Shown: one piece after another, positions 14,477 through 64,000 of the stretch | Layout: every line of letters begins with the position of its first letter | How positions within the stretch are numbered: the first letter of the stretch is position 1 | Notes under the pieces: generated by a model | The model's database searches: none | What the model was told of the DNA's origin: nothing | Seen by the model: the letters and a program-made list of their open reading frames with translations, nothing else | Assembly: GCA_903848645.1 (NCBI GenBank) | Contig: CAINGU010000088.1 | Span: forward strand, 89,276-153,275 | Reading direction: 5' to 3' | Source: an uncultured cyanobacterium | GTDB lineage: Bacteria; Cyanobacteriota; Cyanobacteriia; Cyanobacteriales; Nostocaceae | Length of the DNA: 64,000 nucleotides | Translations under genes and position numbers: made by a program

Positions 14477-17455
14477 TCAAAAGCCTAAATTTAACGTCTC
14501 CTCAAGTGCTGCTGGAATCGCATCAAGATCAATCAGATAATCACCAAAACGCTTAATATGACTGGTTAAATAAGGACTCAAAGCCGCTAAATCTTCTCGC
14601 TCCCAGAAAAAACCTTCTTTTCTGAGTTGAAGCAAAACCTCAGTTAAATCAACCACATTATGGAAAATAACAGCATTAGCTACTAGATCACCGTACTTAA
14701 TCGTCTTCTCTTGCTGTTCAGGGTCATTACTAGCAATCACGCCTTCCCCTCCAAAACAAAACCACTTAGAAAAACCATTATAAGCTTCGACCTTATTAGT
14801 CATCGCTGTAATTTGTTGACGTAACTTTTGGTCAGAGATGAACTGTAATAAAAAAATAGTTCTAATAACTCTCCCTAACTCTCGAAACGCTTGATAAAGT
14901 TTATTCTTCCGACTATAATTTCCCAACTTTCGTAACAACATATCTGAAGAAATTTTGCCTTCTTTAATAGAAAGAACCACTCGTAATAAATCTGACCAAT
15001 GAGTTTTGATAAGTTCCCAATTAATTACCCCTTTAAATAGAGAATCAATATGCTGATAAACCGTCTCCTTATCAGGACGGTAGAAAACCAAATCTTGCCA
15101 ATTTCTAATGCGAGGCATAAGTTGAATACCTAACAAATAGGATAAAGCAAAAACAGGAGTAGACTGTCCTTGAGTATCAGCATGAATAATCGACGGTTGA
15201 ATGTCTGATTTGTTTTTGAGAAGCCCTTCAATAATATATACAGCTTCCCAAGTTCCACAAGGAATAAAATGACTAAACAGAGCTATATAACTATCAGCAA
15301 CATGATGATAAGCAATCCCCCCGTAACCACCATAGCGAATATGATATTCCGAAAGTAAATTTTGCTCGTAAAGATCATATTTAGTTCCATCAGCAGCAGC
15401 CGTCGTCCCGTCTCCCCAGAACTTAGTTAAAGGCATCACATTGTAGCGATTAATAATATCAACTAGAGCAGCATTAAGTCCTTTTAAACTAATATGTCTC
15501 TGATTAACAAAAGTGAGCATTCTTGACGTAACAACGCCTCTCATGTGACGTGCTGCTTGCGCCGCTCCTAGATTGCATCCATAAGTAAAAGTGGTTAATA
15601 AATAGCGTTCTGTAGACCGTTCTAATTTGGAATCAGAACCACTCACTGGACCAAAATGTCGGGTAAAATTTGTCCAATAGTCCACATCTCTAAGAATATC
15701 AATTAAGTTACGCTCTGGCATTCTTTCAGAAATTACAGCCTCTAAGTTTTTGAGAGAAGCACTCTCACGATTAGCTAATGGACGTTTTAAAACAGGTTCT
15801 CCTTGCTCGCTAATAACAATAGATGTATTATTGGGATAACCTAGATCTATTTTGGATGCTGTTTGGGTTAATGAATTTTTTAGATTCTCGACAAAATCTT
15901 CAGCCTGAGTAGGAAAGCCTAATTGTTGACAGTATGCTTCAACCAATGGCTGACAGTCATTCCAAGAAAGTAATTGTTCTCGATAATCAGCATAAGCCTC
16001 ACTGTTGAAGACACAAATATCCCCTGACTTTAGTTCAGCAGCTACATAAGAGAAAATACAAATCTCGAAATGGCGACGCATCACTTTAGTGACATCTTTT
16101 GACTGAACTAGCACTAACTTTTGCCATGGCTGTGAAACAAAAGATAAATCAACTTCTGTTCCTATCCACTCCCCTCGGCGATGGGAATTAGACAGTAAAA
16201 CTTCCACGGCTTTTACCAATTTATCATCACTACTGGTAGATTCTATCTTCAGGAACTTAAATAATCGAAAGAATGCACTACGATGACTTTTATAAAACCG
16301 CCATAATAAAGGAAAGTAATTATTGCCTTGATAAGCATTAATTTCTTCACACTCAGTTAATAATTGTTCAACTCCTCCCGTTTGTTTGAAGATAGCTTGT
16401 AATTGCTCCAATGGATTTGAATTTGAATCTGGTGGCTTTGAATCTGTGGTATCTACATTGAAAACTACTAAAACATCAGTGAGGACAGATACTAATTTTT
16501 CTGTGGTTATCTGCTGTCTTTTTTTGATAGAGTCTAATTCCTCAATAGCCAGATTATGGATTTTTTTCATCTGTTTGAGGAACATTTCTACTAGGTAATC
16601 ACGAGTCTGCACTTGAGCAGAATAAATGAGGCAAAGAAGTAAGGTTAATTGCTTATTCAGAGTAATATCCTTCATCTCAGAAGCAGTAAGAGCTTTAGCT
16701 TCCGAGGTAAAATGTTTGATTTTTGCCCTAGTTAGTCCTTGAAGATAGGGAGTAATTTCCCCCAGTGTTTCTAACCAAGTTAAATGGACAATTAAATCAT
16801 TAAGATGATTTCGACTTGATTTTTGAGGAAGTTTTTTCAGGTCATTATAAGGACTGCGTTCAACTGCTGCATAATTATCTAATAAATCCTTTAATCGCTG
16901 GATATATTCAGGATTAAGTTGATTAATTACCTGGGAGAATATCTGTTGGTTTACTTCTTTTTTGAGATGATTAACTAAACGGTCTAAGGTATTAAAACCA
17001 GGGAGTTCATAGCGTTCTTTGACAACCTCTTCAATGGCTACATTAATTAAATCGGCTGGATTATCCATCCTTAATGCTGATTCAGTGATAACTGCTGTGA
17101 TTAGAGCCTTGCCTTTTTGATTAAAAGGACTCACCTGGAGATAGGAGCGAATCGCTTTTTTGTGACGGGATAAAGTTGATGGATATTGATAGCTAAAACT
17201 TCTATCTTCTTGAAGATCCAATACTGTCCGAATATGGTTGATAATAGCGAGAGGAATGTCTGTTATTTTGGGAAAATAGCCTAATCTCTGAAATACTTTG
17301 AGTAAAACTAGCAAATTAAAATGGTTTTCTTCCCCAGCCGTAACTTTTAAGGCGAATGCTATTTCTATCCTCGTGGGAGTGTAAATTTTATCAAGTTCAT
17401 TGGCGGTATAGTATCGTTTGAATCTGGGATAAGCTGTCCGTTCAATTGATGCCAC
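14477..17455 (-). CDS. tnpA: Tn3-family transposase TnpA
   Basis: 992 aa, full length for the family. The N-terminal part (MASIERTAYPRFKRYYTANELDKIYTPTRIEIAFA) is the DUF4158-type DNA-binding region. The catalytic DDE triad is visible as FWGDGTTAAADG (first Asp), IIHADTQGQSTPVF (second Asp) and FGGEGVIASNDPEQQEK (Glu region). It performs replicative transposition by binding the 51-bp terminal repeats. Its stop is 9 bp inside the left repeat. No frameshift or truncation was seen, so it is probably functional. Confidence 0.96.
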   Translation of the reverse strand: MASIERTAYPRFKRYYTANELDKIYTPTRIEIAFALKVTAGEENHFNLLVLLKVFQRLGYFPKITDIPLAIINHIRTVLDLQEDRSFSYQYPSTLSRHKKAIRSYLQVSPFNQKGKALITAVITESALRMDNPADLINVAIEEVVKERYELPGFNTLDRLVNHLKKEVNQQIFSQVINQLNPEYIQRLKDLLDNYAAVERSPYNDLKKLPQKSSRNHLNDLIVHLTWLETLGEITPYLQGLTRAKIKHFTSEAKALTASEMKDITLNKQLTLLLCLIYSAQVQTRDYLVEMFLKQMKKIHNLAIEELDSIKKRQQITTEKLVSVLTDVLVVFNVDTTDSKPPDSNSNPLEQLQAIFKQTGGVEQLLTECEEINAYQGNNYFPLLWRFYKSHRSAFFRLFKFLKIESTSSDDKLVKAVEVLLSNSHRRGEWIGTEVDLSFVSQPWQKLVLVQSKDVTKVMRRHFEICIFSYVAAELKSGDICVFNSEAYADYREQLLSWNDCQPLVEAYCQQLGFPTQAEDFVENLKNSLTQTASKIDLGYPNNTSIVISEQGEPVLKRPLANRESASLKNLEAVISERMPERNLIDILRDVDYWTNFTRHFGPVSGSDSKLERSTERYLLTTFTYGCNLGAAQAARHMRGVVTSRMLTFVNQRHISLKGLNAALVDIINRYNVMPLTKFWGDGTTAAADGTKYDLYEQNLLSEYHIRYGGYGGIAYHHVADSYIALFSHFIPCGTWEAVYIIEGLLKNKSDIQPSIIHADTQGQSTPVFALSYLLGIQLMPRIRNWQDLVFYRPDKETVYQHIDSLFKGVINWELIKTHWSDLLRVVLSIKEGKISSDMLLRKLGNYSRKNKLYQAFRELGRVIRTIFLLQFISDQKLRQQITAMTNKVEAYNGFSKWFCFGGEGVIASNDPEQQEKTIKYGDLVANAVIFHNVVDLTEVLLQLRKEGFFWEREDLAALSPYLTSHIKRFGDYLIDLDAIPAALEETLNLGF

Positions 17456-17514
17456 GAGTGAGAGAAAAGATGGTTATTTTCAGTTTACAGGAGTATTGTT
17501 ATCACCCCCTTAAC

Positions 17515-18096
17515 TCAATCTGTCCAAAAAGATTCAAATCTTTGGGGGGACATCTGTGTGTAGCGGACTGTATGGTGAATGTTTTTATGTCCTAAGTAGT
17601 CTTGAATCGCTCTGGTATCATGTCCTTGTGAAGCAAGATAATAACCACAAGCATGACGTAGTTGATGAGGATGAACAGATTCCTCAAGTCCGGCTAATTC
17701 TCCGGCTCTGGCTATAATGTGACGGATAGTTCGGGTGGACAGGGGGGCTTTGCGCTCGGAGACGAACACATACTGAGTTTCAGGATAATCTCGTTTAATC
17801 TGACGTAATGACCTCAATTCAGGAGCGCGTAAGGGATGAGTGCTATCATGCCCATGTTTTACTCTTCTTATCTCTATATAGCCGTCGTTCAAATCAATTT
17901 GTGACCATTTCAGAGAAACTAACTCTGCGGTGCGTAGCCCATGCCGAAACATTAGTAAAATAATGGCTGCATCTCGAACTCCGTGTCTTCCAAATGAATG
18001 CGCCGCTTTGATCATTGCTTCCACTTCCTTTGGACGCAAATATTCCCGCTCTCGCTTTGACGCTACTTTTACAGGGGGATGAGGGTGAGAAATCAT
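17515..18096 (-). CDS. Tyrosine recombinase, probable cointegrate resolvase of the Tn3-type transposon
   Basis: 193 aa, essentially a catalytic domain only. The Arg of FRHGLRTAELVSL, the HPHQLRHACG box (HxxR) and the YTQMSPQRFESF tyrosine region of phage-integrase-type enzymes are present. Tn3 relatives with TnpI-like recombinases resolve cointegrates this way. It sits upstream of tnpA on the same strand with a 60-bp gap. The short length resembles the FimB/FimE class. Confidence 0.9.
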   Translation of the reverse strand: MISHPHPPVKVASKREREYLRPKEVEAMIKAAHSFGRHGVRDAAIILLMFRHGLRTAELVSLKWSQIDLNDGYIEIRRVKHGHDSTHPLRAPELRSLRQIKRDYPETQYVFVSERKAPLSTRTIRHIIARAGELAGLEESVHPHQLRHACGYYLASQGHDTRAIQDYLGHKNIHHTVRYTQMSPQRFESFWTD

Positions 18097-56964: not shown

Positions 56965-58611
56965 ATGACTAAATACGTCGCTGCAATTGACCAAGGAACG
57001 ACCAGTACCCGCTTTATCATGTTTGACAAGCAGGGTAAAATTGTTGGCTATGCCCAAAAAGAACATCAGCAGATTTATCCCCAGCCAGGTTGGGTAGAAC
57101 ACAACCCCAAGGAAATCTGGTCATCTACTCAAACTGTAATTAAAGATGCTTTAGAGCAGAGTAATATTACTGTTGCTGAGATAACAGCGATTGGCATTAC
57201 GAATCAGCGAGAAACAGTAGTAGTTTGGGATAAGAACACAGGCGAACCTTACTACAATGCCATTGTCTGGCAAGATACCAGAACTGATTATATTTGTAAT
57301 CAACTAGCAGCAGATGGTGGGATAGACCGTTTTCGCGCCACAACAGGTTTACCACTGGCTACCTATTTCAGCGCCCCCAAAATTAAGTGGTTACTGGAAA
57401 ACATACCAGGATTAAAAGCCGCAGCCGCAGATGGTAATGCTCTTTTTGGCACAATTGACACTTTTTTGATTTGGCATTTAACAGGTGGTACAGAAGGCGG
57501 TTTGCACATTACCGATGTGACTAATGCTAGTCGTACCTTGTTGATGAATTTGAACACTCTGGACTGGGAAACTGAAATATTGGAAATTATGGGTATTTCC
57601 CGGCAAATGTTACCAGAAATTCACCCTTCATCGGCTATTTATGGTCAAGCTACGGGTATTTTGGCAGGAGTTCCCATTGCTGCTGATTTAGGTGATCAAC
57701 AAGCCGCATTAATTGGACAAACTTGTTTTCAGGTGGGTGAAGCCAAAAATACCTATGGTACAGGTTGCTTTATGCTGCTGAATACAGGCCAGCAAAAAGT
57801 GATTTCCCAACATGGTTTATTAACAACCGTAGCTTACAAGTTGGGTGATGCTCCGGCAGTTTATGCTTTGGAGGGGAGTATTGCGATCGCTGGCGCTTTG
57901 GTTCAATGGTTGCGTGACAATTTGGGATTAATTCAAAGCAGTGCAGAGGTAGAATCATTAGCCAGTACAGTTACAGATAACGGTGGTGTTTATTTTGTGC
58001 CTGCGTTTTCTGGGTTATTTGCTCCCTATTGGCGCAATGATGCTAGGGGTGTAATTGTGGGTATGACTCGCTACACAAATAAAGGTCATATTGCCCGTGC
58101 GGTGTTGGAAGCTACAGCATGGCAGACTCGTGAAGTTTTGGATGCGATGAGAGAAGACGCGCAGGTAAATTTAACTGCTTTGAAGGTAGATGGTGGGATG
58201 GTTTATAACAATCTGCTGATGCAATTTCAAAGCGATGTGTTAGGTGTGCCAGTGATTCGTCCCCAGGTAGCAGAAACTACTGCTTTAGGGGCAGCTTATG
58301 CTGCTGGGTTGGCGACTGGTTTCTGGAGTAATTTGGAGGAGTTGTCTGATAATTGGCTTTTAGATCAGACTTGGGAATCAAAGATGGATGCTGTGGAGAG
58401 GGAAGGTTGTTATCGGCTTTGGAAGAAGGCGGTTACTAAAACTTTTGATTGGGTACAATACTATTGCCAATTTTCTCAAATATGTCTGAAACCCAATAAA
58501 ATCGTGACGATATCAATAGGGTTTCAGGGGTTTGGCAATAGTATTGTTGGGTATAGATGTAAATTTTGTCTCTATGAACTTGCTATACTCGGTATAATCG
58601 GTTTTGACTAA
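56965..58611 (+). CDS. glpK: Glycerol kinase with MITE-derived C-terminal extension
   Basis: ATP-dependent phosphorylation of glycerol to glycerol-3-phosphate. FGGY-kinase motifs: [52 protein letters not shown] and [19 protein letters not shown]. The normal protein is about 500 aa and would end near [11 protein letters not shown]; here 50 extra residues come from an inserted repeat (58455-58547) and following DNA. It is a plasmid-borne metabolic passenger. Whether the extension impairs activity is unknown. Confidence 0.93.
58455..58547. repeat. MITE with 16-bp perfect inverted repeats inside the glpK 3' end
   Basis: ACAATACTATTGCCAA (58455-58470) and TTGGCAATAGTATTGT (58532-58547) are perfect complements; an inner TCTGAAACCC/GGGTTTCAG pair adds a second stem. 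93 bp, no gene. It has replaced the glpK stop codon. Confidence 0.85.
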
Positions 58612-58632: not shown

Positions 58633-61600
58633 ATGACAAACAACCAAATCGCAACACCCTTTAGTCAAGATGATAATAATCTCATGCAGCAACTTCTGCA
58701 ATATTGGGGATTGTCAGAACCAATACTGATGGGACAATATACGAGAGTTCAAGACAAACCTTTCGGTTTTTTTAATAATGTTAAGAATAAAGCTGGTAAA
58801 CTTTTATCATATCCGCAGCGATTAGATGAAGTTAGTGTATATATTTATCGGGACGATTTAGAGGAAGGAGCTTATTATAAATTTAGGTTCTGTTTAGCAT
58901 CTCTAAAAGAAAGCCAAAATAAAAATAATCGTTTTCTGATTCAAACCGATACAAGCCAGGAAATTATTAAACTTGATTATAATCAAGAAAATAAAAATAA
59001 TACAGATTCAAATAAATTAGTCATTAAAACACCAAAGCCAAAACTTGAAAATTATAAAAGCTGGGTGCAAGAAATATTTGATAGAAAGGGAAAAACAGAA
59101 GAAGATGCTAAAGATATAGCCAGTTCATTAAATATCTTTTCTGAAGATTTATACACAAAAGCAGAACGTTTTATTTTTGAGCTTTTACAGAATGCTGATG
59201 ATTTTCCAGGAGCATCAGGAAAGGTACAAATTAAATTTATGCTTTTACAAGAGCATTTATTGATTCTTCATACTGGTAAATCGTTTTCTAAAGAAGAAGT
59301 AGAAGCAATCTGTAGGATTGGCAATAGTACGAAATCAACAGATGCTTCTAAAACAGGCTATAAAGGTATTGGTTTTAAATCTGTTTTTGTTCATGCAGAC
59401 TGTGTTTATATATTCTCCGGTAATTATCAGTTTAGATATGATAAAAACTACTATAAAAAACCAGAAATAACTCCTTGGCAAATTAAACCAATATGGACAG
59501 ATAAACATGAATTACCACAAGAAATAAGATTAGCTGGCGATTTTTTTGAATATCCTGTCGCAATTGGTGTTCATGTTGGAATAGATAAAGTAAATGAATA
59601 TAGACAAAAAATTAAAGAGATTTTCTCTGAACCCAGATTTATGCTATTTTTACGTCATGTAAATTTAATAGAAATATCAGGGTTAGTTCATGATTTAAAA
59701 ATCAGCTTGCAATTAGATAGAGAAAACAAGTTTAGTAAAATATCATCTAATGGTAAATTTAGAAATAACTGGTTAGTTGAAGATTTTGTATTTGAAGTTA
59801 CCCAAGATGTCAGGGATAGAGTTAAAAATGATAACAGTGTACCTACAAAATTACAACAAGCTACAAAAACAAAATTAAGTTTTGGTACTAAAATTGAGAA
59901 TGAAAAATTAATTGCTCTATCAACTGATGAATCAGTATTATTTAGCTATTTACCTACTAATGTTAAAGATTATCAGTTTCCTTTGTTAGTTAATGCGGAT
60001 TTTTTGACTAAAGCTGATCGTGAAGATTTACATCGGGATAATGACTGGAATTGTTTTATTTTTGAACAAATAGGCTACCATATTTTTGAATTTTTAGCTC
60101 GGATATGTAATTCCTATCCAACATATAGAAATTATATTACTGACTTAATACCTTCTCCATTAAATAGCAAAGAAAAGGTATCACAAAGTTTTAATGATGG
60201 ATTTGCTAAAGGTATAGAAAATATTGCCTTTATCCCATCAGATGAAACAGATAAACTTTTGAAAGTAAATGAAGCAATTATTGACAATACAGGTATTACT
60301 GAAATCATTCCTACTTCAAAAGTCAAGTCTATCTTAAATATTCAAAAGTGTTTTGTAAGTAGAACATTAAGAAATTCTGACAAATTACAGCGACTAGGTG
60401 TTGAAACATTTGATTTGAATCAGCTTATTAATTTACTTAAGCAATATTCTTATGAATCTTTAGAAGAATATATCAAAATTATTATTCATTTAGAAAATAA
60501 AAAATATGCTACCAAGATAAAAGAAAGACAATTACCAATGATTTGGGGTGAAAATGGAAAAATTATAGTATCTACATCTGAGCAAACTGTATATTTTCAA
60601 CCATCAATAGAATCGAAAAAGTTATTGACTTTTGATAATTTTGCCTTTATTCTCCCTCAACTAGATCAGGACAGTTATGAAAATACTCATTTGCATTCTG
60701 CTTTAACATCACTAGGAGTAAAAGATTTTAATCCTATACAAGTGATTAAAGAAAGAATGAGAAAAAGTCAATATGAACCTATAGCTAATACAGTTAATGA
60801 TCATATTAATCATATTCGTTTTATTTTTCAAAACCGTCATCAACTTACTGATATTGAATATCAACGATTAAGTAATCTCAAACTTCTTTATAGAATAGAG
60901 GAAAAATATTTTCCTGCGGTAGCTTCTAGTTGCTATTTATCTGATTACTATCAACCACAATATGCTTTAGAGTCTGTAGCTAAAAATTTAGGCGAAAATA
61001 ATAAAATTGCTAATAATTTTCAATTTATTGCATCTGATTACTGTGAATATGAGAAAGATATTACCTCATGGAGACAATTTTTCCTTAAAATTAATATTGT
61101 TAAACCAGATGGGTTAGAAATTATTAAAAAGTATATTTTACCCCTGATTGATAATAATCAAATTAATGAAAATAACACTATACAAATTACCAGATTTATG
61201 TTTAGTGTACTTCATAACCAAATAATCAATATTGATATTAAACAAAAACTTAGTAAGTTATTATTGCTGACTAATGAAGGGTTAAAACAAGTTATTGAAT
61301 GTAATTTATCTGAATTTTACATTAATGTCTCTCAATCATCAAATTTTCTACAAGAATTTAAACTTCCTAACCGTATTAGTAATCAATATTGCAGTGGTAA
61401 TGAATCTCCAGAAAAATGGAGACAATTTTTTGTTAATATAGGTGTTAAAGAGGTTAATGGAATAGAATTAATTAGAAAAAAAATTGCTTTGTTAGAAACT
61501 AACAAGGATTTTATTAATCCCAAGAATGTTATTCAAATTACTATAGAAATATTTAATTATAACCGTGATTTAACACAGGATGATTTTCAGAAATTATCTG

Positions 61601-63585
61601 AACTACCCATCTTAGTAAAAAACGGTCAACTTGCACCAGCAAATGAATGTTATCTATCTAATGATTATCATCCTAAACAAGATTTAGAAAGTTTATTTGC
61701 TAGTACAGAATTTCACAAAATTGTAAGTTCTCAATATATTACTGAAAATAATGCAGAATTATGGAAGCAATTTTTTGTCAAAATTCAAGTCGCAGAAGAG
61801 CTTAGAGTTTTAAAATATGAGGAACGAGTATCTTTTATATCTACTAAAGATGTAGAAAAAGCATATTTAAAATATATTCAAGTGGATTATGCTGATAGCT
61901 ATGATATGGAAAATTTTGTTGAAATTACTGACATAGAGGATTATATTCAAAACTATGACTTTGCTTACCAACTATGGTCATATTTGAAGCAAATTTGGAA
62001 TATCAATTTAGAAGCTGATTCCCAAATTTGGATTAGTTCTGACAAGAGACGAAAAGTTTTTTCTTACTTCAAGTTTTTATTTACCCAATATCCATCAATT
62101 CCTTGCATAGATAAACGATGTCGTAAACCTGCTGAAATTTATTCATATTCTATTCCTACCAAAAATGATTTAATCGCTTTGGGTTTACCTGTATCATCAA
62201 TAGATTTTCCAAGTAACATAGAATCTTTTTTAGGAATTAAGAAAACGTTAGACGTTAAAGCATATCTACAAATAATAGATAATATAAATGCTAATTTTTC
62301 AAAAAACCACATACCAAAATTGTTGTCTGCTTATGAAGGACTATTGAAAGTTTTACAGAGTGGAAATTCTGGAGATAAAATTTTGATTAGTCAATGGAGT
62401 AAAACTGGTAAACTGCTTGGTTGTGATGAACAACTTCATCCTACTAATGAATTATATTATCTTGATTCATCACTGGAGTTACCTTATAAACAAAATCCCC
62501 GACTGGTTAAGTTTCCAGAAAGTTTGAGGAGTTATAATGCTGAAAATTTATTATCTGCTTTTCATGTAAAAAAAATTCAAAATGCTCCAGTTTATTATGA
62601 TGCAGATAAAACCTGTACAATCTTACCGCAATTAATACATGATAGACTTTACTATATTAGTGTTTACTTAGTAAATTCTACTATTCCTGAATTAATTGAT
62701 GAGCAAACTAAAAAAGTTATTATTGCTTTATCTCAACTTAGTATTAGTAATCCTAATAAACTTTATCGTTCTATTAAAGATATAGACTATGAAGAAGCAA
62801 TTTATAATTTTTATGGTAATAATGGAATTTTTTATGTTGGTCGGTGGAATAGCAGGAAAAATGCTAAAATTGGTGAATATCTCATTAAAGCATTGGGATT
62901 AGATGAGAGAAAAATTAGTAGTGAAAAATTATTAGATTTCTTAGATGATCCTTTAGAGGAAGTAATTAGTTATCTGAGAGAAGGTGGTTTTGATATTCCT
63001 GAACCACCAAAACCTGAAGTAATTCCACCTATAGAGACTTCAATTACAAGTAGTGTTATTTCAATTGACGAACCAGGTAAAGGATATAAACCAGAACAAT
63101 GGGGTAAATTTGGTGAAGATAAAGCTGAATTATTTTATAAAAGATTAGGTTATACTATTGTCAAACAACCAGACGGAACTGGTTATGATTTTCGATGTAC
63201 TAAACCAAACAGTGAATTATTTGTAGAAGTCAAAACCATTAATCCTAATTATAATGATGTGATTAGGATTACGCCAAATGAGTGGCAGAAAATGTGTATA
63301 CTTGATAATCAAAACAAGTATGAATTATTCATTGTTCTCCATGTTGGTGAATCAGTTACTAAAATGATTCGGATTCAATCTGCATGGAAAACATTACAAG
63401 AGGTTTTATCAAAACTTAATCAACAATCTCATACTGCTTATGGATATAATAGTAATATGATAGAGGTATTGATTGGTTTACAAGGTAATTCTAATAATTC
63501 AGGTAATGACATTATATTTAATTGGAAACGATTAGCTGAAAAGGGAAATTTATTAAGTTCAAATATACAAGAATTTTCCTCTTGA
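58633..63585 (+). CDS. Sacsin-type GHKL ATPase with C-terminal NO VEIN (DUF3883) nuclease-like domain, 1650 aa
   Basis: Residues 150-330 form a GHKL ATPase: FIFELLQNADD (N-box), HTGKSFSKEEVEAICRIGNSTK and GYKGIGFKSVF (G-boxes), as in sacsin/HSP90-like enzymes. The long middle (400-1480) is Leu/Asn-rich with repeated blocks such as WRQFF(L/V)(K/N)I and CYLS(D/N)(Y/D)Y.P. Residues 1500-1600 (EQWGKFGEDKAELFYKRLGYTIVKQPDGTGYDFRC...LFVEVKT) show a GYDF-EVKT PD-(D/E)xK-like core of the DUF3883 family. This architecture occurs in phage-defence genes. Low GC relative to flanks suggests transfer. Confidence 0.8.
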   Translation: MTNNQIATPFSQDDNNLMQQLLQYWGLSEPILMGQYTRVQDKPFGFFNNVKNKAGKLLSYPQRLDEVSVYIYRDDLEEGAYYKFRFCLASLKESQNKNNRFLIQTDTSQEIIKLDYNQENKNNTDSNKLVIKTPKPKLENYKSWVQEIFDRKGKTEEDAKDIASSLNIFSEDLYTKAERFIFELLQNADDFPGASGKVQIKFMLLQEHLLILHTGKSFSKEEVEAICRIGNSTKSTDASKTGYKGIGFKSVFVHADCVYIFSGNYQFRYDKNYYKKPEITPWQIKPIWTDKHELPQEIRLAGDFFEYPVAIGVHVGIDKVNEYRQKIKEIFSEPRFMLFLRHVNLIEISGLVHDLKISLQLDRENKFSKISSNGKFRNNWLVEDFVFEVTQDVRDRVKNDNSVPTKLQQATKTKLSFGTKIENEKLIALSTDESVLFSYLPTNVKDYQFPLLVNADFLTKADREDLHRDNDWNCFIFEQIGYHIFEFLARICNSYPTYRNYITDLIPSPLNSKEKVSQSFNDGFAKGIENIAFIPSDETDKLLKVNEAIIDNTGITEIIPTSKVKSILNIQKCFVSRTLRNSDKLQRLGVETFDLNQLINLLKQYSYESLEEYIKIIIHLENKKYATKIKERQLPMIWGENGKIIVSTSEQTVYFQPSIESKKLLTFDNFAFILPQLDQDSYENTHLHSALTSLGVKDFNPIQVIKERMRKSQYEPIANTVNDHINHIRFIFQNRHQLTDIEYQRLSNLKLLYRIEEKYFPAVASSCYLSDYYQPQYALESVAKNLGENNKIANNFQFIASDYCEYEKDITSWRQFFLKINIVKPDGLEIIKKYILPLIDNNQINENNTIQITRFMFSVLHNQIINIDIKQKLSKLLLLTNEGLKQVIECNLSEFYINVSQSSNFLQEFKLPNRISNQYCSGNESPEKWRQFFVNIGVKEVNGIELIRKKIALLETNKDFINPKNVIQITIEIFNYNRDLTQDDFQKLSELPILVKNGQLAPANECYLSNDYHPKQDLESLFASTEFHKIVSSQYITENNAELWKQFFVKIQVAEELRVLKYEERVSFISTKDVEKAYLKYIQVDYADSYDMENFVEITDIEDYIQNYDFAYQLWSYLKQIWNINLEADSQIWISSDKRRKVFSYFKFLFTQYPSIPCIDKRCRKPAEIYSYSIPTKNDLIALGLPVSSIDFPSNIESFLGIKKTLDVKAYLQIIDNINANFSKNHIPKLLSAYEGLLKVLQSGNSGDKILISQWSKTGKLLGCDEQLHPTNELYYLDSSLELPYKQNPRLVKFPESLRSYNAENLLSAFHVKKIQNAPVYYDADKTCTILPQLIHDRLYYISVYLVNSTIPELIDEQTKKVIIALSQLSISNPNKLYRSIKDIDYEEAIYNFYGNNGIFYVGRWNSRKNAKIGEYLIKALGLDERKISSEKLLDFLDDPLEEVISYLREGGFDIPEPPKPEVIPPIETSITSSVISIDEPGKGYKPEQWGKFGEDKAELFYKRLGYTIVKQPDGTGYDFRCTKPNSELFVEVKTINPNYNDVIRITPNEWQKMCILDNQNKYELFIVLHVGESVTKMIRIQSAWKTLQEVLSKLNQQSHTAYGYNSNMIEVLIGLQGNSNNSGNDIIFNWKRLAEKGNLLSSNIQEFSS

Positions 63586-63717
63586 CTATATTTATCCATT
63601 AACACCGTAATGATTTTAGCGATCGCTCACCCTTTCCTTTCTCAATAAGCGATCGCTACTAGAAAAGATCACTAAGTAATTGTAAATTTTTTTGCCATTA
63701 AGCGGTAATATATCGCT

Positions 63718-64000
63718 TTATTTTAGCATTTTTGGCAGATAAGACTGACGATAATTATTCTTAGCCATTAGCCTAGCTTCACGCCTTGTCCAGCGTTTTT
63801 GTAAAGGTACATCAGCCAATCTTTGTAGCAGCATAAACACACTATTATCTCCTGTCAACTTAGCAATTGTTTGAGCAATAACCTTACAACAATTCCAAGG
63901 ATGACGCACCACCTGAATTTCTGCAAATCTGATTACACCCCAATTCCGTTCCAAGAAAAATCGGTTACGAATTTTATCATCATCAACATCAATACAGTGG
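63718..64000 (-). CDS. C-terminal part of an endonuclease-like protein (5' end outside window)
   Basis: The frame continues past the TTG used by the track to the window edge, reading HCIDVDDDKIRNRFFLERNWGVIRFAEIQVVRHPWNCCKVIAQTIAKL. This resembles the C-terminal half of DUF559/Vsr-type restriction-endonuclease-fold proteins (RNxFLE...W.VIRF.E.QV). The stop is at 63718. It lies convergent to the defence-like ATPase and may belong to the same island. Confidence 0.5.
   Translation of the reverse strand, partial: HCIDVDDDKIRNRFFLERNWGVIRFAEIQVVRHPWNCCKVIAQTIAKLTGDNSVFMLLQRLADVPLQKRWTRREARLMAKNNYRQSYLPKMLK

Follow-up and report, generated by a model that had tools for sequence, protein, structure and literature searches.

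The window, by which we mean the whole 64,000-nucleotide stretch of Nostocaceae DNA analysed here, closes with one very large gene and the fragment of a second on the opposite strand. Window position 64000 is also the last position of the contig (C88), and the assembly contains nothing further 3′. The features recognised in this last part of the window are as follows.

58633-63585, forward strand: tmtA-like (Tiamat) gene, intact, a single open reading frame (PADLOC TmtA match; dN/dS)
58675-58977, forward strand: N-terminal domain, residues ∼15-115, proposed to be a cold-shock-like OB-fold sensor (homology to the McrB-like CnuB, PDC-M26A; weak CSD-like profile signal)
59148-59448, forward strand: GHKL (sacsin/HSP90-type) ATP-binding core, residues ∼173-272 (Pfam, NCBIfam, motifs, profile against structures)
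60796-61815, forward strand: three degenerate tandem repeats of ∼115 residues each, residues ∼722-1061 (segment comparison)
63151-63357, forward strand: NOV_C (DUF3883) PD-(D/E)xK-like domain, residues 1507-1575, with G1517-Y-D1519-F and E1532-V-K1534-T (Pfam, alignment)
63700-63718, forward strand: terminator-like stem-loop between convergent genes (consensus match only)
63718-63999, reverse strand: truncated neighbour, the end of a 218-residue protein as completed from Trichormus sp. NMC-1 (open reading frame)

The large gene encodes a product of 1650 residues in one uninterrupted frame. The initial annotation had called it AT-rich, and its G+C content is indeed 0.283 (GC3 of 0.16) compared with 0.395 for the remaining window (28% vs 39.5%), the adjoining plasmid genes glpK and relaxase having values of 0.429 and 0.42. 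Promoter-like matches were no commoner than in shuffled sequence. PADLOC identified the product as TmtA (PDLC03972, E=4.9e-245), and five further TmtA models also matched. Tiamat (TmtA) is a single-gene anti-phage system, reported by Millman et al. in 2022. Like TmtA, the window protein joins a sacsin/HSP90-like ATPase through a long middle part to NOV_C at its C-terminus; unlike the TmtA model, whose match begins at residue 142, it carries an extra N-terminal domain of ∼100 residues outside the model, and its 1650 residues compare with 1302 positions in the best TmtA model. Thus, the architecture described by the initial annotation was right and already has a name: the Tiamat family is known, and what is new is the N-terminal domain variant in one TmtA clade.

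The ATPase is of the sacsin type, in agreement with the GHKL domain predicted earlier. Pfam SACS matched residues 174-272 above its curated cut-off (2.5e-12), and NCBIfam P_loop_sacsin matched at 2.1e-22. Among 20 aligned sequences and fragments, the N-box (E183, Q186, N187, A188, D190) and the G2 box (G242, G245, G247) were invariant wherever the region was present. The G1 box is degenerate in this group, reading HTG, HNG or HDG and not DxG (HTG in the window protein), so that ATP hydrolysis by the protein is not assured. With a profile, the best solved relatives were the SR1 region of sacsin (PDB 5v44-5v47, E=9e-6) followed by mitochondrial TRAP1. The ATPase domain is therefore like that of sacsin (SACS) SR1; unlike sacsin, however, the window protein ends in a nuclease-type domain, and Pfam found none of the DnaJ, HEPN or ubiquitin-like domains of sacsin in it.

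For the middle of the window protein, BLAST of the whole protein against itself revealed no repeats, and we therefore compared segments instead. This identified copies at about residues 722-835, 842-955 and 942-1061, with Smith-Waterman scores of 140, 138 and 114 compared with a shuffle maximum of 63. The middle had been described as repetitive over a thousand residues; the demonstrably repeated part is only ∼350 residues.

At the C-terminus, NOV_C matched residues 1507-1575 above the curated Pfam cut-off (1.5e-12). D1519 and E1532 were kept in all homologues except one paralogue (L102), which has lost both, G1517 and K1534 were kept in all aligned homologues, and the D, E and K were invariant in five distant relatives from viral contigs as well. 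The residues of GYDF and EVKT, which the initial annotation had singled out, are thus conserved, and the PD-(D/E)xK-like end that it proposed is borne out. The initial annotation had named a lack of conservation at the catalytic residues as grounds for dropping its reading, and this check did not overturn the reading. DUF3883 has been called a novel REase domain (PMC3710099); the window protein shares the conserved D...ExK of that domain, but in the published case it is fused to a SNF2 helicase in an R-M operon, whereas here its fusion partner is a sacsin ATPase and there is no methyltransferase. An AlphaFold model of the C-terminal 271 residues (7 sequences) was unusable (mean pLDDT of 45); a Foldseek search with this low-confidence model returned nothing at E<=0.001, and a match to EcoRV over only 29 residues is no evidence.

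We compared the gene with its copies in Trichormus sp. NMC-1 (91% identical) and in a second genome, G146 (69% identical). Whole-gene dN/dS values were 0.39 and 0.33, respectively, indicating purifying selection, and the ATPase gave 0.19-0.20 in the same two comparisons. The N-terminal domain gave 0.65 and 0.92, values that rest on few changes, and this relaxation could reflect drift instead of adaptation. Along the gene, dS relative to the copy at L005:10001-14989 varied from 0.02 to 0.32, a mosaic pattern suggestive of allelic recombination. Taken together, the TmtA profile, the conserved residues of both the ATPase and the nuclease and the purifying selection uphold the defence reading and the single-protein, ATPase-to-nuclease architecture given earlier, and lend good support to a defence gene whose one sacsin-like product ends in a nuclease domain.

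Upstream of tmtA lie plasmid genes, encoding a NikA/MobC-like protein, a relaxase, a ParM/StbA-like protein and GlpK. Fourteen Nostocales plasmid records matched the region, 12 of which were typed as conjugative or mobilizable; no plasmid record contained a full-length tmtA relative. In Anabaena cylindrica pANACY.01, RelE/ParE, PIN and HicAB toxin-antitoxin genes occupy the position at which NMC-1 has tmtA, and tmtA is thus cargo at a variable site. A 91-bp repeat (58456-58546) lies at the 3′ end of glpK; its core is an inverted repeat, TGAAACCC...GGGTTTCA at 58487-58526, and because the repeat removes the glpK stop codon, the glpK frame runs on to 548 residues. This repeat is absent from the NMC-1 site, but parts of it are matched on other plasmids of Nostocales.

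The truncated neighbour had been described as endonuclease-like. No nuclease family was matched in Pfam, NCBIfam, PHROG or PDB, and the idea that it is a restriction endonuclease thus found no support from any profile. It was rejected as a partner of tmtA, since the two are 2.5 kb apart in NMC-1, with other genes between them, and the neighbour is a backbone gene of many Nostocales plasmids: we found it on 41 other plasmid records, in nearly every case annotated as a hypothetical protein. By eye, an ADF...EIDE pattern resembles DUF559/Vsr-type proteins, which we mention as a lead. At the four loci with an N-domain gene that we read (the window, L005, L040 and L042), there was no common partner gene, the window and L005 sharing the plasmid backbone only; the tmtA product therefore probably acts alone. 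At the G146 locus (L042:3528-14616), tmtA directly follows a gene for a 1906-residue DruE-like helicase, and a UvrD/GajB-like helicase gene lies further upstream.

The distribution is patchy: of 193 genomes of the family, 22 contained matches to tmtA. Relatives also occur on large contigs of chromosomal origin and on viral contigs, and on one of the latter a relative adjoins a gene that by eye resembles a terminase gene. The genome of the window itself contains a second TmtA (1357 residues; L004:4001-8074), encoded on a different contig beside rbcL, the gene for the large subunit of Rubisco. This second TmtA covers positions 4-1302 of the 1302-position TmtA model, and it has close homologues in G073, G108 and G033. 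A third sacsin-domain protein, of 854 residues, lies outside the window on the same plasmid-like contig (C88 ∼15053-17617; L106:3054-5618, reverse strand). Broken relatives are common (L040, L045, L046, L048, L052), with transposase insertions, split frames or a deleted ATPase; these copies fit costly accessory defence genes, and some may be assembly faults. Four viral contigs (L109, L111, L112, L113) encode shorter sacsin-NOV proteins of 1057-1121 residues, in each case directly downstream of large genes, at least some of which look helicase-like by eye.

The N-terminal domain (residues ∼15-115) is a separate unit ahead of the ATPase that the initial annotation did not include, and it matched no Pfam family. 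TmtAs of sister genomes begin ∼137 residues further in, so that D172 is preceded by 34 residues compared with 171 in the window protein, and most TmtA relatives that we found are missing the domain. Four TmtAs of full or nearly full length have it (the window, NMC-1, G146 and G243), and these form one clade on the ATPase tree (support of 0.93); a plasmid relic of Geminocystis sp. NIES-3709 keeps part of it. The relic (L041:5472-6305), a TmtA of the N-domain type that has lost an internal segment, adjoins a McrB-like AAA gene. Outside this clade, we found the domain only in McrB-like CnuB proteins: it begins the 673-residue McrB-like proteins of G073 and G172 and their equivalent in G175, all three from the genus of the window, and it aligned with the N-terminus of the CnuB/PDC-M26A protein at E=6.6e-11 (32%). 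The domain is rare, four genomes being matched, one of them marginally, in samples of ∼390 genomes each from the phylum and the class, and neither a profile nor single homologues matched it when used to search plasmids and viral contigs.

The McrB-like protein and its partner matched PADLOC PDC-M26A/B (tested for G073), and the pair at L049/L050 bears the published marks of Type I-A CoCoNuT: an NxD motif (INVD) at 472, Walker A at 281, a long insert between Walker B and NxD whose length was read off the sequence, weak matches to SMC-type coiled coils at 79-214, and a partner with PDDEXK_7 and four CxxC (zinc-binding cysteines). The PDC-M26A model does not extend over the N-terminal domain, and in G298 the CnuB-like protein begins with another sequence altogether; CnuB, too, thus seems able to exchange this domain. 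The N-terminal domain is homologous to that of Type I-A CoCoNuT (CnuB/CnuC; PADLOC PDC-M26; PMC11090510), but the window protein, unlike that system, lacks the McrB AAA+ domain, the coiled coil and the CnuC partner. We therefore rejected CoCoNuT as its identity: there was no AAA match and no McrC-like neighbour, the N-terminal domain alone being in common.

The N-termini of Type I CnuB proteins are reported to be cold-shock-like (CSD-like) OB-folds, which typically bind RNA and possibly single-stranded DNA (PMC11090510). A profile built from 23 cyanobacterial cold-shock domains aligned with the N-terminal domain in hhalign with a score of 19.2 and a pairwise E of 0.005, at a probability of only 7%; 2 of 200 column shuffles reached this score, and the reversed control scored 8.4. 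The alignment, at that same low probability, is collinear and places KPFGFF on KGFGFI and VYIY on VFVH (RNP1/RNP2-like). The Pfam cold-shock domain (PF00313) gave no match above the gathering threshold, and an AlphaFold2 model of the N-terminal domain (2 sequences) was unusable (mean pLDDT of 35). The domain is probably a cold-shock-like OB-fold by its homology to CnuB, for which our own fold comparison is only suggestive.

On balance, we favor the explanation that the gene is a Tiamat single-gene anti-phage system of a clade with an added N-terminal sensor, carried as cargo on a mobilizable Nostocales plasmid. In McrB-type proteins, the N-terminal position is that of recognition domains and carries specificity (PMC7641849), and by analogy with these systems we propose a sensor role for the domain. 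It would bind phage-derived RNA or single-stranded DNA, and this binding would lead to ATP-dependent closure of the sacsin/HSP90-type GHKL module, acting as a switch. The repeat region may then relay closure towards the C-terminus and activate the NOV_C PD-(D/E)xK nuclease, which would cut the nucleic acid of the phage, or of both phage and host, and so presumably protect the host. A less likely explanation, although one that retains some weight, is that this is an ordinary Tiamat whose N-terminal domain is a stabilizing, oligomerizing or targeting appendage, recognition being a function of the repeat region as in TmtAs without the domain. The sister TmtAs with 34 residues before D172 have intact motifs, so the domain is not needed for core function, and its relaxed dN/dS is also in keeping with an appendage. 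However, a defence ATPase of an unrelated kind, the AAA+ McrB-like protein, has the same domain at its N-terminus, in the specificity position where McrB-type proteins carry their recognition domains, which argues against an appendage.

Two further explanations concern the role of the gene as a whole. One is that it protects the plasmid or serves in competition, acting against incoming plasmids or plasmid loss in the manner of the pANACY.01 toxin-antitoxin genes and not against phage. What lies between glpK and the genes downstream, namely toxin-antitoxin genes in pANACY.01 and tmtA in NMC-1, is consistent with this idea, but TmtA relatives are also found on large chromosomal contigs and viral contigs and no antitoxin-like gene is linked to tmtA, and we consider it improbable. 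Weaker still, and very improbable in our judgment, is the idea that the gene has no part in defence and that its product, much like NO VEIN of plants, serves as a sacsin-like chaperone or in housekeeping, for which the HSP90/sacsin-type ATPase, the profile matches to sacsin and TRAP1 and the plant sequences that also match Tiamat models (PMC12409356) might speak, but which agrees poorly with the patchy distribution, the many copies broken by an IS, by splitting or by internal deletion, carriage by plasmid and phage, the defence-type neighbours at the G146 locus and the intact nuclease residues.

For the Tiamat system with an N-terminal sensor that we favor, the occurrence of one front domain in both a TmtA clade and CoCoNuT CnuB suggests that anti-phage systems swap sensing parts. 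We raise more tentatively the possibility that the TmtA family is modular and that a domain at the N-terminus, binding nucleic acid, determines what each protein senses; in the present case this domain would be a cold-shock-like OB-fold that was exchanged with CoCoNuT CnuB. If this is true, two unrelated systems, Tiamat with a GHKL ATPase and CoCoNuT with an AAA+ ATPase, each with a different PD-(D/E)xK nuclease, would answer the same phage signal, probably phage RNA, and two systems thought to be unrelated would be connected through a common sensing part. A 2026 review lists the mechanism of Tiamat as unknown (PMC12926258), and here the shared domain offers a test, though no answer; this domain of ∼100 residues would provide a direct handle on both the mechanism and the phage range of Tiamat.
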